Shown: positions 55,955-60,633 of the stretch, in pieces
Numbering within the stretch: position 1 is the first letter of the stretch
Layout of the letters: every line of letters starts with the position of its first letter
Source: an uncultured Gammaproteobacteria bacterium
GTDB taxonomy: Bacteria > Pseudomonadota > Gammaproteobacteria > JAADHQ01
Direction of reading: 5' to 3'
Assembly (NCBI GenBank): GCA_947258655.1
Contig: CAMYJD010000002.1
Span: 62,001-126,000 of the forward strand
DNA length: 64,000 bases
The notes under the pieces: generated by a model
The model's input: the letters and a program-made list of their open reading frames with translations, nothing else
What the model was told of the DNA's origin: nothing
The model's database searches: none
Translations under genes and position numbers: made by a program

Positions 55955-56533
55955 GTGGCAAGCAGTATGAGTAGACGCTTAGCGGGGCATGACATGCATG
56001 ACTGGAATATCGTGGTTACGATCCATGCGGGCCATTTTAAACAGGCTATACAGTTCCTGCAGAGCTTCGGCATCACAGGCAGGACGGACTACTTCAATGT
56101 ACTGGTCATGAAGGTGGATGATCTTAGCCAGTTCCTCGAAGACATTAACAATGAGATTCTGGCTGCAGGCATGTTGAATGATATTTTTAGTCGCATCATG
56201 CCTGCATCCGTGACTTTTGATTTCCAGAGCGCGACTGAATTTGAAGCGCAATTGAAGCAGGCAGTGGAACCATGGCTGGCGCAACTTGCAGGCTGCAGCT
56301 TTCATGTACGCATGCACCGTCGAGGATTCAAGGGCCGTTTATCAAGTCAGGAGGAAGAGCGCTTGCTGGACCATTTTATCATGAGCAGACTCGATGAGCA
56401 GGGAGGCATTGGCAATATCGACTTCGATGATCCTGACTATATCATAGATATCGAAACCGTCAGTCAGAGGGCCGGCGTGTCCCTGTGGTCACGCACGCAA
56501 CGAATGCATTATGCGTTGCTGAAGCTCGACTAA
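55955..56533 (+). CDS. THUMP-domain (TAN1-like) protein
   Basis: 192 residues from a GTG with GGAAGG upstream; ATG 55967 is an alternative. The C-terminal half carries the THUMP-like signature FHVRMHRRGFKGRLSSQEEE and the DPDYIIDIETVSQRAGVSLW strand. THUMP domains bind tRNA acceptor ends; TAN1 aids tRNA acetylation. No catalytic domain is attached. It lies in one strand with PrimPol (10 bases on). Confidence 0.85.
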   Translation: MASSMSRRLAGHDMHDWNIVVTIHAGHFKQAIQFLQSFGITGRTDYFNVLVMKVDDLSQFLEDINNEILAAGMLNDIFSRIMPASVTFDFQSATEFEAQLKQAVEPWLAQLAGCSFHVRMHRRGFKGRLSSQEEERLLDHFIMSRLDEQGGIGNIDFDDPDYIIDIETVSQRAGVSLWSRTQRMHYALLKLD

Positions 56534-56543
56534 TTACACAACA

Positions 56544-57329
56544 ATGGTTTCTGCTAAATTTGAAAAGGCCGCACTCGCTTACCTCCAGCGCGGATGGTCG
56601 GTGATTCCGATGCGCAAGCGAGACAAGCGTCCTGCTATAAGCTGGCAGGGATTCCAGAGCGTACGCGCCAGCGAACAGCAGGTGCGGGATTGGTACCGAC
56701 GCTGGCCTGATGCCAATGTGGGCATCGTAACCGGCGTTATATCCGGCCTCGTCGTGCTGGATGTGGATACCCGGCATGGTGGTGATGACAGTCTGAAACG
56801 TCTTGAACTCGAAAACTCGCCACTACCACAGACGCTTGTGGTCATTAGCGGCGGTGGTGGACGTCATTATTATTTTGCTCATCCTGGCGGTAGCGTACGT
56901 AACCGGGTCGGGATTGCGCCAGGCATCGATCTGCGCGCTGATGGCGGCTGCATTGTCGCACCGCCATCGGTGCATCCCTGTGGCAGGGAATATCAATGGG
57001 TCAAGGATTGTGCGCCCGAGCAGGTTACATTGGCAGCGTTGCCAGACTGGCTGCGACAAATATTAGCCAAGACAGCGGAACACAGCAGCCATACGCTGGA
57101 TTATTGGCGTCAGCTGTTGCATGTAGGTGTTGAAACAGGTGAACGCAACAATACCATAGCCTCCATCAGTGGCCATTTGTTATGGCATGGGGTGGATCCG
57201 GATGTGGTCCTGGAATTGATGTTGTGCTGGAATCGTACCCGCTGCCGCCCAGCTCTGGATGATGCGGAAGTTGTGCGCACGGTGAACAGTATCACGCGTA
57301 TGCATGAACAACATGAGCAGGACATGTAA
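56544..57329 (+). CDS. stand-alone primase-polymerase (PrimPol) with PriCT
   Basis: 261 residues. Archaeo-eukaryotic primase fold: VLDVDTRHGG (DxD), the SGGGGRHYYF (sxH) motif and GIDLRADGGCIVAPPSVH (third acidic residue). A PriCT-1-like helical tail follows (NTIASISGHLLWHGV). All metal-site residues are intact. Such domains are normally fused to a helicase on plasmids, phages and other mobile elements; here there is no helicase and no other mobile gene, which is unusual. Confidence 0.88.
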   Translation: MVSAKFEKAALAYLQRGWSVIPMRKRDKRPAISWQGFQSVRASEQQVRDWYRRWPDANVGIVTGVISGLVVLDVDTRHGGDDSLKRLELENSPLPQTLVVISGGGGRHYYFAHPGGSVRNRVGIAPGIDLRADGGCIVAPPSVHPCGREYQWVKDCAPEQVTLAALPDWLRQILAKTAEHSSHTLDYWRQLLHVGVETGERNNTIASISGHLLWHGVDPDVVLELMLCWNRTRCRPALDDAEVVRTVNSITRMHEQHEQDM

Positions 57330-57468: not shown

Positions 57469-57726
57469 ATGATCCCGATACATGAACTATTGAATCGTAT
57501 CCGCTGGGATAAGGATTATGGTGATGCTGAATTCGTTATCGGATATTATGATCGCATCGAGGAGCGGATAATTACTGTGCCACTAAAGTCGCTCTATTTT
57601 GATAGCGAAGATCATTTTGATTTCGAGTTGGTAGATGACGAGGGCGTCATTCATACGATTCCCTTACATCGCATCAGACAGGTATATCGTGACGGTGACC
57701 TGGTATGGGAACGCAAGCAGGGGTGA
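57469..57726 (+). CDS. DUF504 (MJ1316-like) protein
   Basis: 85 residues: MIPIHELLNRIRWDKDYGDA, IGYYDRIEERIITVPL and the C-terminal HTIPLHRIRQVYRDGDLVWER define DUF504. The MJ1316 form of this domain is predicted in RNA repair and is fused to RNA-active enzymes in other organisms. Here it stands alone and precedes the kinase/nuclease fusion by 10 bases. Direct function unproven. Confidence 0.9.
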   Translation: MIPIHELLNRIRWDKDYGDAEFVIGYYDRIEERIITVPLKSLYFDSEDHFDFELVDDEGVIHTIPLHRIRQVYRDGDLVWERKQG

Positions 57727-57736
57727 TTCCGGTGGC

Positions 57737-59767
57737 ATGGCTCCGTATTCTGTTATGAATTCAATAAGACGACAACATGGTTTTCCGTTACTGAGCGCCA
57801 ATGTCGCGGATATTGTTGCGACGGTATTGCAACAGGATCAGCGTGTACTACTGTACGGTGCAGCCGGTACAGGTAAGTCTACGCTGGCAACAAGTATGGC
57901 GCAGCACCTGGCACAGGAAAATCGCCGCTGTAGTTGTATCAGTGCCGACCCGGGATCGCCACTAATGGGCATGCCGGGTACACTGTCACTGGGGCAATGG
58001 GTGCAGGACGCATGGCACATAGAAGAATATTCACCCCTGTGCACCCTCGATGCGGGTCGCTTCCGTTTACCATTGGTAGCGGCATTGGGGCACTTGTTGG
58101 ATCACGCCAGGGACGGCGTGATATTGGTTGACGGACCCGGTGTCGTTCGTGGTGTGGCCGGGCGTGAATTGCTTGAAGGTCTGGTGTCGGTGGTCAAGGC
58201 TGATGTGGTACTGGTGGTCTCGATAACAGATAAAATCCCACCGCTGCTGGCAGAATTGAATGCCCTGGCGTCGGCAATAGCTGCAGAGATCTATATCGTA
58301 CCGGCCGCGGCAGCAGCCATGCGCCCGGGCAAACGGGTGCGCGCGCGACGACGCACCGAACAGTGGGACCAATACCTGGGCGATCGCATCAGGCAGGATG
58401 TTGATCTTGAAAAAGTCAGTATCATCGGCACGCCACCACCGCGAGAGCAGGCGCATGCCTGGACAGGCAGGCAGGTCGCATTGCTGCATTCGCAACATAC
58501 CCGGGTCATGGGCGAGGTGCTACAACTCAAGGGAAACTGTCTGACGCTGATACTGCCTGCCCGTGTCAGTGATACAGATGCGCTGTTAATCCGTGATGCA
58601 GTACGCACGGCTGACGGCTACGTGGAAACGGCCATGCCCTGGGCTGCAGCGCAACTTGGCTATATACCGCCGGCAGATGTGTTGCCATCTGCCGCAGGCA
58701 GTAGCGGGCCACGTCTGGTAGGGCGGGTCGGAAACGTCGATGTGGCCATGATCAACGGAGTGTTTGGTGATCCGTTGTTACACATACGCCTGCGTCATCA
58801 GCGGCGCAGCCTGTTGTTCGATCTGGGTAGCGGCGAACGCTTGTCTGCGCGTATTGCCCATCAGGTGAGCGATGTATTTATCTCCCACGCACATCTTGAC
58901 CACATCAGCGGATTTGTGTGGCTGCTGCGTTCACGTATTGGTGAATTCCCTGCTTGCCGTTTATATGGCCCGCCTGGGCTGGCGCGACATATCGCAGGTT
59001 TTATACAAGGTGTGTTGTGGGATCGCGTAACTGTTCCCGGCCCGGAATTCGAGGTCCACGAGTATGACGGCAATATCCTACGCAGTTTTCTGCTGCAGGC
59101 GACCCGGCCGGAGCCGGAGTTGTTACACGAGCAATCTGTGACAGATGGTATCTTGCGTCAGGAATCCGGATTTACGATACGCGCGGTATTGCTGGATCAT
59201 TGCGGTACCGAGGTCGTGGCATACGCCTTTGAACCTGATCAGCAGATCAATGTGCGCAAGGACCGTCTCTTGGCGAGGGGATTGCAACCGGGTGCCTGGC
59301 TGAATGAATTAAAGCAGTATGTGGCAAGCGCAAACGACAGCACCAGGATTCGCCTGCCTGACGGCAGCGACGCGTCGGTGGCAGAACTGGCAAGCGAGCT
59401 ATTGCTGATCAGTGCAGGTAAAAAGTTGGTGTATGCCACTGATCTGGCCGACACGCAGAATAATCGCCAGCGTCTTGTTGACCTCGCCCGTAACGCACAT
59501 ACGTTTTTCTGTGAGGCAGCGTTTGCCGAGGCAGAGGCCGACAACGCCTTACGCAATGGTCATTTAACAACACGTGCCTGTGGTGAAATTGCAGTGCTGG
59601 CCGGTGTCGGTCGACTGGTGCCGTTTCATTTCTCACGGCGCTATACGGAAGATCCGTTGCAGATTTATCATGAACTGAAAACGGTCTGCCCTTGCGTTAT
59701 GATACCAATGTCAGCGCAACTATTCGAGACGAGCCGCGTAATACCTGACGATGCAGAAATCGTATAG
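57737..59767 (+). CDS. Clp1-type polynucleotide kinase fused to RNase Z-type metallo-beta-lactamase
   Basis: 676 residues from ATG 57737. Residues ~1-200 form a Clp1_P kinase: Walker A LYGAAGTGKSTLAT (residues 41-49), then SADPGSPLMGMPGTLSLG and VDGPGVVRGVAGRELLEG. From residue ~335 an RNase Z-type metallo-beta-lactamase follows: SHAHLDHISG (384-389), YATDLADT (D569), GHLTTRACGE (H609) and PFHFSRRY (H631), the RNase Z order. It should bind two zinc ions. Clp1 kinases add phosphate to RNA 5'-OH ends; RNase Z cuts tRNA 3' trailers. The union suggests that one protein handles both ends of an RNA. Confidence 0.85.
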   Translation: MAPYSVMNSIRRQHGFPLLSANVADIVATVLQQDQRVLLYGAAGTGKSTLATSMAQHLAQENRRCSCISADPGSPLMGMPGTLSLGQWVQDAWHIEEYSPLCTLDAGRFRLPLVAALGHLLDHARDGVILVDGPGVVRGVAGRELLEGLVSVVKADVVLVVSITDKIPPLLAELNALASAIAAEIYIVPAAAAAMRPGKRVRARRRTEQWDQYLGDRIRQDVDLEKVSIIGTPPPREQAHAWTGRQVALLHSQHTRVMGEVLQLKGNCLTLILPARVSDTDALLIRDAVRTADGYVETAMPWAAAQLGYIPPADVLPSAAGSSGPRLVGRVGNVDVAMINGVFGDPLLHIRLRHQRRSLLFDLGSGERLSARIAHQVSDVFISHAHLDHISGFVWLLRSRIGEFPACRLYGPPGLARHIAGFIQGVLWDRVTVPGPEFEVHEYDGNILRSFLLQATRPEPELLHEQSVTDGILRQESGFTIRAVLLDHCGTEVVAYAFEPDQQINVRKDRLLARGLQPGAWLNELKQYVASANDSTRIRLPDGSDASVAELASELLLISAGKKLVYATDLADTQNNRQRLVDLARNAHTFFCEAAFAEAEADNALRNGHLTTRACGEIAVLAGVGRLVPFHFSRRYTEDPLQIYHELKTVCPCVMIPMSAQLFETSRVIPDDAEIV

Positions 59768-59802
59768 TTCCGGACAGAGTGTTCATCTCAGGGGAAATGG
59801 TC

Positions 59803-60633
59803 ATGTGCGATGATGAATGTGTAAAGTTTCTGCAGTGGGCCTTACCGCAACTTCATATGCAATGGCCGGGTTTCCGTAAGGTGCGAGCCCAGGTATGCAA
59901 GCGCATTGCCCGGCGCATCAAGCATCTGCAGTTGGCAGACATTACTGAATACCGTGGTTTTGTGCATAAACACGCACAGGAATGGGATGTTCTGGATAGT
60001 CTGTGTCAGGTGACGATTTCACGCTTCTATCGTGACAAGCTGATGTTTGCATTTCTGGCCCGTGAGGTTCTGCCAAGCCTGGCACAACAGGCGCTTGCAC
60101 AGGGCAGGGATTATTTGAATGTCTGGAGTGTGGGTTGTGGTTCCGGCGAGGAGCCCTATTCGATGGTGTTGCTGTGGCAATTGCAATTACAGGTACAGTT
60201 TACCGGGATGCATATGCGTATTACTGCGACCGATGCCAATCCTGAATTGCTTCAGCGTGTTACCGAGGCCTGTTATCCCTATGCCAGTATCAAAAATCTA
60301 CCCCAGGAATGGCGTAATGCGGCATTTAGCATTCATGCAGATCAGTATTGCCTAAAGCCTGATTACCGACATAAGCTCAGGCTCCTGCAACAGGATGTGC
60401 GTGAAGCGATGCCTGAGGAAACATTCGATCTGGTATTATGCCGCAATCTGGTATTTACCTATTATGATGATGATTTGCAACGTACCATTCTGCAACGCTT
60501 GCAGGCGCTGTTAAGACCGGGTGCTGCGCTGGTAATCGGGATCCATGAACATCTGCCGGCCGGGACGAGCGGATTTACGGAGTGGTCAGGTAAAATGAGA
60601 ATCTACCGGAAAAGCATCTCTGCCAGTGAGTGA
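59803..60633 (+). CDS. CheR-type SAM methyltransferase
   Basis: 276 residues from ATG 59803 with AGGGGA seven bases upstream (GTG 59779 and ATG 59797 are weaker). An N-terminal helical part, then VTISRFYRDKLMF, the SAM site VWSVGCGSGEEPYSM and LVLCRNLVFTYYDDDLQ. This is the CheR fold, but the usual N-terminal RxxF region is altered (VTISRFYRD). No chemotaxis gene lies nearby, so the substrate may not be a chemoreceptor. Confidence 0.85.
   Translation: MCDDECVKFLQWALPQLHMQWPGFRKVRAQVCKRIARRIKHLQLADITEYRGFVHKHAQEWDVLDSLCQVTISRFYRDKLMFAFLAREVLPSLAQQALAQGRDYLNVWSVGCGSGEEPYSMVLLWQLQLQVQFTGMHMRITATDANPELLQRVTEACYPYASIKNLPQEWRNAAFSIHADQYCLKPDYRHKLRLLQQDVREAMPEETFDLVLCRNLVFTYYDDDLQRTILQRLQALLRPGAALVIGIHEHLPAGTSGFTEWSGKMRIYRKSISASE

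Follow-up and report, generated by a model that had tools for sequence, protein, structure and literature searches.

RNase Z cleavage leaves a 3'-hydroxyl (3'-OH) and a 5'-phosphate (5'-P), and enzymes of the T4 Pnkp type, like the fungal and plant Trl1 proteins, carry a 5' kinase and a 3'-end-healing activity in one chain. Clp1 kinases are defined by four motifs: Walker A, Walker B ([D/E]hhQ), a clasp ([T/S/L]xGW) and a lid (RxxxxR). The survey that sets out this definition reports Clp1 from 14 of 1,543 bacterial species, describes it as extremely rare in bacteria and tabulates four gamma-Proteobacteria without it; the terms 'RNase Z', 'ribonuclease Z' and 'lactamase' do not occur in its text (PMC6777427). 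Here we describe a stretch of 64,000 nucleotides (the window) from contig CAMYJD010000002.1 of an uncultured gammaproteobacterium (the host), in which one gene at positions 57737-59767 encodes a Clp1/Grc3-like P-loop kinase half followed by an RNase Z-like metallo-beta-lactamase (MBL) half. We refer to its product as the fusion.

A Clp1/Grc3-like and an RNase Z-like half in one chain

The open reading frame (ORF) runs on the forward strand from an ATG at 57737 to a stop codon ending at 59767 and encodes 676 residues. No stop codon interrupts the frame upstream as far as an ATG at 57635, an extension that overlaps the gene before it; the alignment of its homologues begins near the start at 57737. 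An AlphaFold2 model built from an alignment of 68 sequences has a mean predicted local distance difference test score of 92.4 and a predicted template modelling score of 0.86. The first-pass annotation of this DNA had proposed a polynucleotide kinase and an RNase Z nuclease in a single protein at exactly these coordinates. That kinase-like and RNase Z-like halves share one chain is borne out by Pfam and NCBIfam matches, by the folds of both halves and by a single frame in 75 of 80 related loci; GAAGTGKS (residues 41-48) and PGTLSLG (residues 80-86) likewise lie where it placed them.

A scan of GTDB genomes with a sequence alignment (A1) found 195 relatives, the best 80 of which were retained for locus counts, whereas a single-sequence scan of genome contigs found none. 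The best 80 are mostly from Gammaproteobacteria (Halomonadaceae, Methylobacter, Chromatiales and others), and the rest include Nitrosomonas, Desulfobulbus, Nitrospinota and a few metagenome-assembled genomes labelled Deltaproteobacteria. One ORF spans at least query residues 44-644 in 75 loci; among the other five, four end at a contig edge (L084 holds residues 294-675 only) and one, L049, has its frame broken near residue 602. Because the fusion recurs across loci and in other genomes, a chimeric contig or a frameshift is an unlikely origin. For conservation counts, five loci whose frames are truncated or broken (L049, L084, L091, L112 and L114) and two missed by the motif patterns (L069 and L110) were left aside, and the remaining 73, together with the window protein, were filtered at 88% identity to 72 sequences. 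Selection of these 72 relied on the Walker A and HxHxDH patterns, but not on the other conserved residues. K47, D71, D132, R206 and eight MBL residues are invariant in all 72, and the same motifs are present, by eye, in L069 and L110. Alignment A2 holds 68 of the 72 (without L075, L099, L101 and L108), and A3 and A4 hold 27 and 21 of those 68.

Superposition by VIA-align on PDB structures, which the first-pass annotation had named as a check, placed the N-terminal half on Clp1 and Grc3 and the C-terminal half best on RNase Z. Metabolite kinases, GTPases and glyoxalase II were looked for as other identities of the halves; none is among the 50 VIA-align matches listed, which is no proof of absence. 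The N-terminal half fits human CLP1 of the TSEN complex (8hmy_E) with a Z score of 27.0 over 264 aligned residues (root-mean-square deviation (rmsd) 3.0), C. elegans Clp1 with 26.4 and Grc3 with 23.0, within a range of 20 to 27 for Clp1/Grc3 structures. The family CLP1_P (PF16575) matches residues 41-214 at 5.7e-15 (56.1 bits against a cut-off of 26.6). It is the best family for the window protein and was matched at an E value of 0.001 or better by all 27 sequences scanned.

The Walker A sequence GxxxxGK[ST] of Clp1, Nol9 and Grc3 kinases is intact, with K47 in 72/72 sequences and also in L069 and L110. Two arginines resemble those of the lid (R202 in 67/68, R206 in 68/68), spaced RxxxR rather than the RxxxxR of Clp1. 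In contrast to the [D/E]hhQ of Clp1, the Walker B stretch keeps its Asp (68/68) but has Gln in only 2 of 68 sequences, mostly replaced by Ser, and the clasp reads xPGV instead of [T/S/L]xGW, with Val in 56/68 and Trp in 0/68. The surrounding D132-x-P-G-x-x-R motif is invariant in the 68 sequences. When aligned with Grc3, DPGQPEFSPPGVVSLT lies opposite DPGSPAFGVPGAVSLG of the fusion, and TPGW opposite APGV. The N-terminal half is a divergent relative of Clp1/Grc3, so called because the Walker-B Gln and the clasp Trp are changed, and it is likely to act as a 5'-OH RNA kinase.

The C-terminal half has the fold, zinc ligands and catalytic residue of RNase Z. It aligns with the tRNA-bound enzyme 4gcw_A (307 residues) over 280 residues (Z 27.8, rmsd 3.5) and with 1y44_A (269 residues) over 242; the PhnP family structure 6b9v fits the MBL half with a Z score of 19.8. 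Pfam places its MBL matches in the second half of the fusion. The 'ribonuclease Z' subfamily NF002558 (PRK02126) covers residues 335-652 at 6.1e-79 with 265.5 bits, under its cut-off of 315, and the standalone relatives L031 and L032 score 427.6 and 404.0 on this model. The RNase Z equivalog TIGR02651 gives the fusion 95.8 bits against a cut-off of 292.95. Residues H384, H386, D388, H389, H488, D569, H609 and H631 are each present in 72/72 sequences and align with RNase Z of B. subtilis and E. coli (HMMER). The first-pass annotation had placed HAHLDH (384-389), D569, H609 and H631 correctly, although its list, offered as every RNase Z zinc motif, omitted H488. Residues 502-547, the probable counterpart of the flexible tRNA-binding arm of RNase Z, contain a PG motif with G519 in 72/72 and P518 in 58/72 sequences. 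We conclude that both folds are present, that the zinc-motif, P-loop and lid-like residues are retained, and that the fusion as a whole is conserved.

Table 1. Positions in the window of the fusion, its motifs and the genes preceding it
Feature	Coordinates	Strand	Basis
THUMP-like protein (possible tRNA binding)	55955..56533	+	THUMP E 0.0017, 19.1 bits, below cut-off 20.6
Small Prim-Pol/PriCT-1 protein	56544..57329	+	Pfam; relative adjoins RtcA and MJ1316 in G095 (L151)
MJ1316 domain protein (Pfam 'RNA cyclic group end recognition'), 85 aa	57469..57726	+	PF04457 2.1e-25
Fusion protein, Clp1/Grc3-like P-loop kinase half and RNase Z-like MBL half	57737..59767	+	676 aa
N-terminal half, Clp1/Grc3 kinase core and following beta domain, about residues 18-292	57788..58612	+	VIA-align
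Walker A GAAGTGKS, residues 41-48	57857..57880	+	K47 in 72/72
Residues 71-86, DPGSPLMGMPGTLSLG, aligned with Grc3 DPGQPEFSPPGVVSLT	57947..57994	+	Walker-B Asp kept, Gln lost
Clasp-like motif DGPGVVRG, residues 132-139	58130..58153	+	Clp1/Grc3 clasp Trp replaced by Val
Probable lid arginines R202, R206	58340..58354	+	67/68 and 68/68
C-terminal half, RNase Z-like MBL domain, residues 334-657	58736..59707	+	Fold and NF002558
HxHxDH zinc motif, HAHLDH, residues 384-389	58886..58903	+	Conservation and RNase Z alignment
H488, zinc-motif His	59198..59200	+	72/72; aligned with RNase Z
Residues 502-547, probable counterpart of RNase Z tRNA-binding arm (PG motif)	59240..59377	+	B. subtilis RNase Z alignment
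D569, zinc-motif Asp	59441..59443	+	72/72; aligned with RNase Z
H609 of GHLT, predicted catalytic His	59561..59563	+	72/72; aligned with RNase Z H-S-T
H631, zinc-motif His	59627..59629	+	72/72; aligned with RNase Z

Among 229 genomes of the class, 8 carry the full fusion, 1 has a fragment of it at a contig end and 11 have a standalone MBL relative; three genomes of the host's genus (G001-G003) yielded no fusion. In a tree the fusions form one clade, but with weak support (0.466) and against only six standalone sequences, so that it does not establish that the fusion arose once. The motif patterns of the fusion fail in several standalone sequences, GH.T being found in 0/6. A mobile or defence origin is not supported by the scans. 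Coverage of the fusion protein reaches 80% in none of the plasmid or phage records, and the matches listed (10 of 17 for plasmids, 1 of 1 for phage) involve the MBL half only. Residues 359-433 had a single 29% match in a viral scan limited by pattern, and PADLOC returned only weak matches to the P-loop half (<20 bits), with nothing beyond the P-loop that would mark a defence protein.

Association with RtcB, RtcA and MJ1316

The 229 genomes were compared by Fisher tests in which shared ancestry is ignored. RtcB is present in 8/9 genomes with the fusion or its fragment, in 9/11 with a standalone MBL relative and in 57/209 others; for RtcA the corresponding counts are 4/9, 5/11 and 9/209. With fusion and standalone genomes pooled, the difference from the others is 17/20 versus 57/209 for RtcB (p 5e-7) and 9/20 versus 9/209 for RtcA (p 1.3e-6). 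It persists for the fusion and fragment alone (RtcB p 3e-4, RtcA p 8e-4). MJ1316 scores over its cut-off in 12 genomes (a match in G139 lies below it and was excluded), all 12 of which have RtcB and 8 of which have RtcA. Of the same genus, G001 and G003 have neither the fusion nor RtcB, RtcA or MJ1316, whereas all four are present in the host.

Several loci also bring these genes close to the fusion. RtcA lies upstream at a distance of 34 bases on one contig (L041/L025) and of 363 bases in L035 (assigned by homology); in L042 it follows the fusion after 59 bases, and in L036 it is upstream with a THUMP-like gene between the two. L035 and L036 are 86% identical, so the RtcA cases represent three lineages. 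RtcB is found about 0.9 kb upstream of the fusion in L054, and in G054 the fusion, RtcA and RtcB share one contig within 15 kb, the Rtc genes lying some 9-12 kb from the fusion. Gene association with the RtcB/RtcA repair system is thereby seen as RtcA at 4/80 loci, in three lineages, and RtcB at 1/80. The association of the fusion with RtcA and RtcB is both statistical and local.

In the window the THUMP-like, Prim-Pol and MJ1316 genes precede the fusion in this order on the same strand, the MJ1316 stop codon being separated from the fusion start by 10 bases. MJ1316 is described as recognizing 2',3'-cyclic ends of RNA (PMC6514570). It adjoins RtcA in G095 and G134 and lies near RtcB in G101. 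G095 has no fusion match, but carries Prim-Pol, RtcA and MJ1316 in that order, with a Prim-Pol 53% identical to that of the window over 128 residues; genes found upstream of the fusion in the window therefore recur with RtcA elsewhere. A primase-like enzyme (window 56544-57329; L151) is thus found in what would be an RNA-repair setting. In L036 and L072 (2/80 loci) the gene immediately before the fusion encodes a relative of the THUMP-like protein: that of L036 scores 24.4 bits, over the cut-off of 20.6, and that of L072 has no THUMP match. Weak THUMP-like stretches of 37 residues, possibly remnants, lie 1-2 kb from the fusion on the opposite strand in L024, L037 and L038, and were excluded from the THUMP counts.

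Elsewhere in the host, archease adjoins RtcB, and RtcA is also present. Next to the host RtcA (L150 7300-9741, C1) lie genes for a CBS-domain protein and for a ribosome hibernation factor that combines S30AE with a cold-shock domain (CSD); genes that look similar by eye adjoin MJ1316 on the RtcB-bearing contig of G101 (L160 1-1755), which perhaps indicates a link between RNA repair and ribosome hibernation. A phosphoribosyltransferase (Pfam) follows RtcA in the host (L150 9759-10358), and in L054 one that resembles it by eye is encoded downstream of the fusion. A short protein resembling phosphoenolpyruvate (PEP)-utilizing enzymes, with PEP-binding and mobile domains, precedes RtcA and the fusion in L025 (7403-8674), and such a protein stands beside a standalone RNase Z-like gene in L033 (7643-8923). 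CheR-type methyltransferases occur near the fusion in the window (59779-60633), L043, L044 and L046, and near MJ1316 in L160 and, by eye, in L157. A small DUF6763 protein is encoded directly upstream of the fusion in L037 (3346-3654), L038 and L045 (the same as L026; 2193-2486), and a protein resembling it lies beside MJ1316 in L160 (1832-2272).

Proposed role and alternatives

We propose, at about even chances, that the fusion is a two-headed enzyme that processes RNA ends, for repair or triage, beside the RtcB ligase/RtcA cyclase system. The Clp1/Grc3-like half would bind ATP and phosphorylate 5'-OH ends of RNA. The RNase Z-like half, as a zinc enzyme, would act on broken RNA, in all likelihood a tRNA or a tRNA-like molecule, at its 3' end, where it could clip or hydrolyse a damaged or phosphate-blocked end to a 3'-OH. 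Together the two halves would convert a break with 2',3'-cyclic-phosphate and 5'-OH ends to one with 3'-OH and 5'-P ends. Human ELAC1 reportedly carries out such 3'-end processing on tRNAs broken in ribosome rescue. The RNA_ligase family PF09414 was not found in the host, other ligase families not having been searched; in such a cell the 3'-OH/5'-P ends may be passed on for CCA re-addition or for decay instead of reaching RtcB, making the fusion a triage branch. Phosphorylation by CLP1 removes RtcB substrates, as reviewed for animal CLP1 (PMC13247085). Because of this, and because the host has no PF09414 match, triage away from RtcB is as probable as healing for ligation. We infer both enzymatic activities, the tRNA substrate, the triage function and a functional connection to MJ1316 and to the THUMP-like protein from the homologies and associations described above.

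The first-pass annotation had instead envisaged coupled tRNA maturation, with 5' phosphorylation tied to 3'-end cleavage. This is not supported. RNase Z leaves a 5'-phosphate, and its own cut therefore offers a 5' kinase no substrate; since the kinase cannot use the product of the nuclease, it is more likely that each half serves one side of a break that a different nuclease has made. ARAGORN, run on the loci of 30 Rfam matches, called 30 distinct host tRNAs, 29 of which encode CCA; the 30th, called in L137 outside the Rfam match, is taken as spurious. A partial Rfam match, L145, has no ARAGORN call, and the 30 may not be all host tRNA genes. The window itself gave no matches in an Rfam scan. 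No host gene scores over the RNase Z cut-off, the fusion being the best of five matches. Given the encoded CCA and the lack of a gene over this cut-off, ordinary tRNA 3' maturation is an unlikely role. A housekeeping variant, in which the fusion serves as a bacterial RNase Z whose kinase half conditions precursor 5' ends, would suit the RNase Z fold with its probable tRNA-binding arm, a host in which the fusion is the nearest thing to an RNase Z, and the common set of housekeeping neighbours at about 15 Halomonadaceae loci, which suggests stable inheritance there. We nevertheless consider it improbable: in addition to the encoded CCA, the fusion is sporadic in the class and was not found in G001-G003, and both its neighbours and its co-occurrence with RtcB/RtcA point to RNA repair by that system instead.

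Alternatively, the P-loop half might not be an RNA kinase at all; it could control the nuclease half as a switch driven by ATP or as a kinase with a different substrate. The loss of the clasp Trp and Walker-B Gln, together with an invariant D132-x-P-G-x-x-R motif, would be compatible with such a function; the catalytic Lys, the Walker-B Asp and two lid-like arginines are retained, however, the Clp1/Grc3 fold extends to the domain after the kinase core, and CLP1_P is matched throughout the 27 sequences scanned. Control of this kind is an unlikely explanation, though one that keeps some weight. It is less plausible still that the fusion has no part in RNA repair, being instead a phosphodiesterase of the MBL type that acts on sugar phosphates or small cyclic nucleotides and has a partner domain dependent on nucleotides, and that its link to the Rtc genes reflects coincidence or shared lifestyle. 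Relatives with small-molecule substrates, such as the PhnP family, do fold alike, and most neighbourhoods are not RNA-related. Against this stand the RtcB/RtcA co-occurrence, the THUMP-like and MJ1316 neighbours, the probable tRNA-binding arm and the adjacency of RtcA in three lineages, for which a crude Poisson model with inputs of our choosing gives a chance of about 8e-8 for at least three.

A number of observations weigh against the proposed end-processing role beside RtcB and RtcA. A partnership with RtcB is not obvious, because a 5' kinase takes away the substrate of the ligase, and PF09414, the one ligase family searched, is present in just 2/8 fusion genomes. Of the four motifs published for Clp1, two are changed here; with the clasp Trp and Walker-B Gln lost, binding of RNA 5' ends may differ from that in Clp1. 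The Rtc genes are near the fusion at only the five loci counted above (RtcA 4/80, RtcB 1/80), and among the matches listed most fusion loci, those of Halomonadaceae included, have other, mostly unrelated neighbours. By tblastn, MJ1316 and Prim-Pol stand beside the fusion in 0/80 loci, and thus in the window only. Among the eight full-fusion genomes, one is without RtcB and four are without RtcA. For MJ1316, the association with the fusion alone is not significant (2/9 versus 10/220, p 0.07) and becomes so only when standalone nucleases are added (6/20 versus 6/209).

In a more specific version of the end-processing proposal, the fusion would be a bacterial enzyme of RNA end healing, equivalent in function to T4 Pnkp or to the parts of Trl1 that act as kinase and cyclic phosphodiesterase, but with a kinase of the Clp1/Grc3 type and a nuclease of the RNase Z type. 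The THUMP protein would steer it to broken tRNAs and MJ1316 to cyclic-phosphate ends, and it would decide between ligation by RtcB and the fates open to 5'-P/3'-OH ends. We advance this tentatively, as a possibility rather than an expectation.

Comparison with known systems

The RNAs handled by bacterial RtcA and RtcB are described as unknown (PMC7790460). An enzyme able to handle both ends of a break, and co-occurring with RtcB and RtcA, would offer a direct way to test what these proteins target, and the fusion occurs in culturable genera such as Halomonas and Methylobacter. It is a new combination of known parts: no report of a Clp1-RNase Z architecture was found in the openly licensed full-text literature searched, and we do not claim a first report. 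The fusion would widen the bacterial Clp1 family and add a pairing of kinase and nuclease unlike Las1-Grc3 or TSEN-CLP1.

With the Grc3/Nol9 and Clp1 kinases of the Las1-Grc3 and TSEN-CLP1 complexes, the fusion shares the fold of residues 18-292 (approximately), the Walker A motif, the Walker-B Asp and lid-like arginines, and a DPGxPxFxxPGxxSL stretch is common to it and Grc3. As in those complexes, a kinase is associated with a nuclease. In contrast to them, the nuclease is RNase Z-like and lies in the same chain, and the clasp Trp and Walker-B Gln are lost. A bacterial Clp1-type P-loop domain has a precedent in Ts-Clp1 of Thermus scotoductus (PMC6777427). The C-terminal half resembles RNase Z/ELAC1 and the standalone NF002558 (PRK02126) MBL family in zinc motifs, catalytic His, probable arm and fold; unlike these proteins, the fusion scores below both cut-offs (95.8 versus 292.95 and 265.5 versus 315) and is joined to a kinase-like domain. 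Like T4 Pnkp and Trl1, it would unite a 5' kinase with 3'-end healing, from other domain families.

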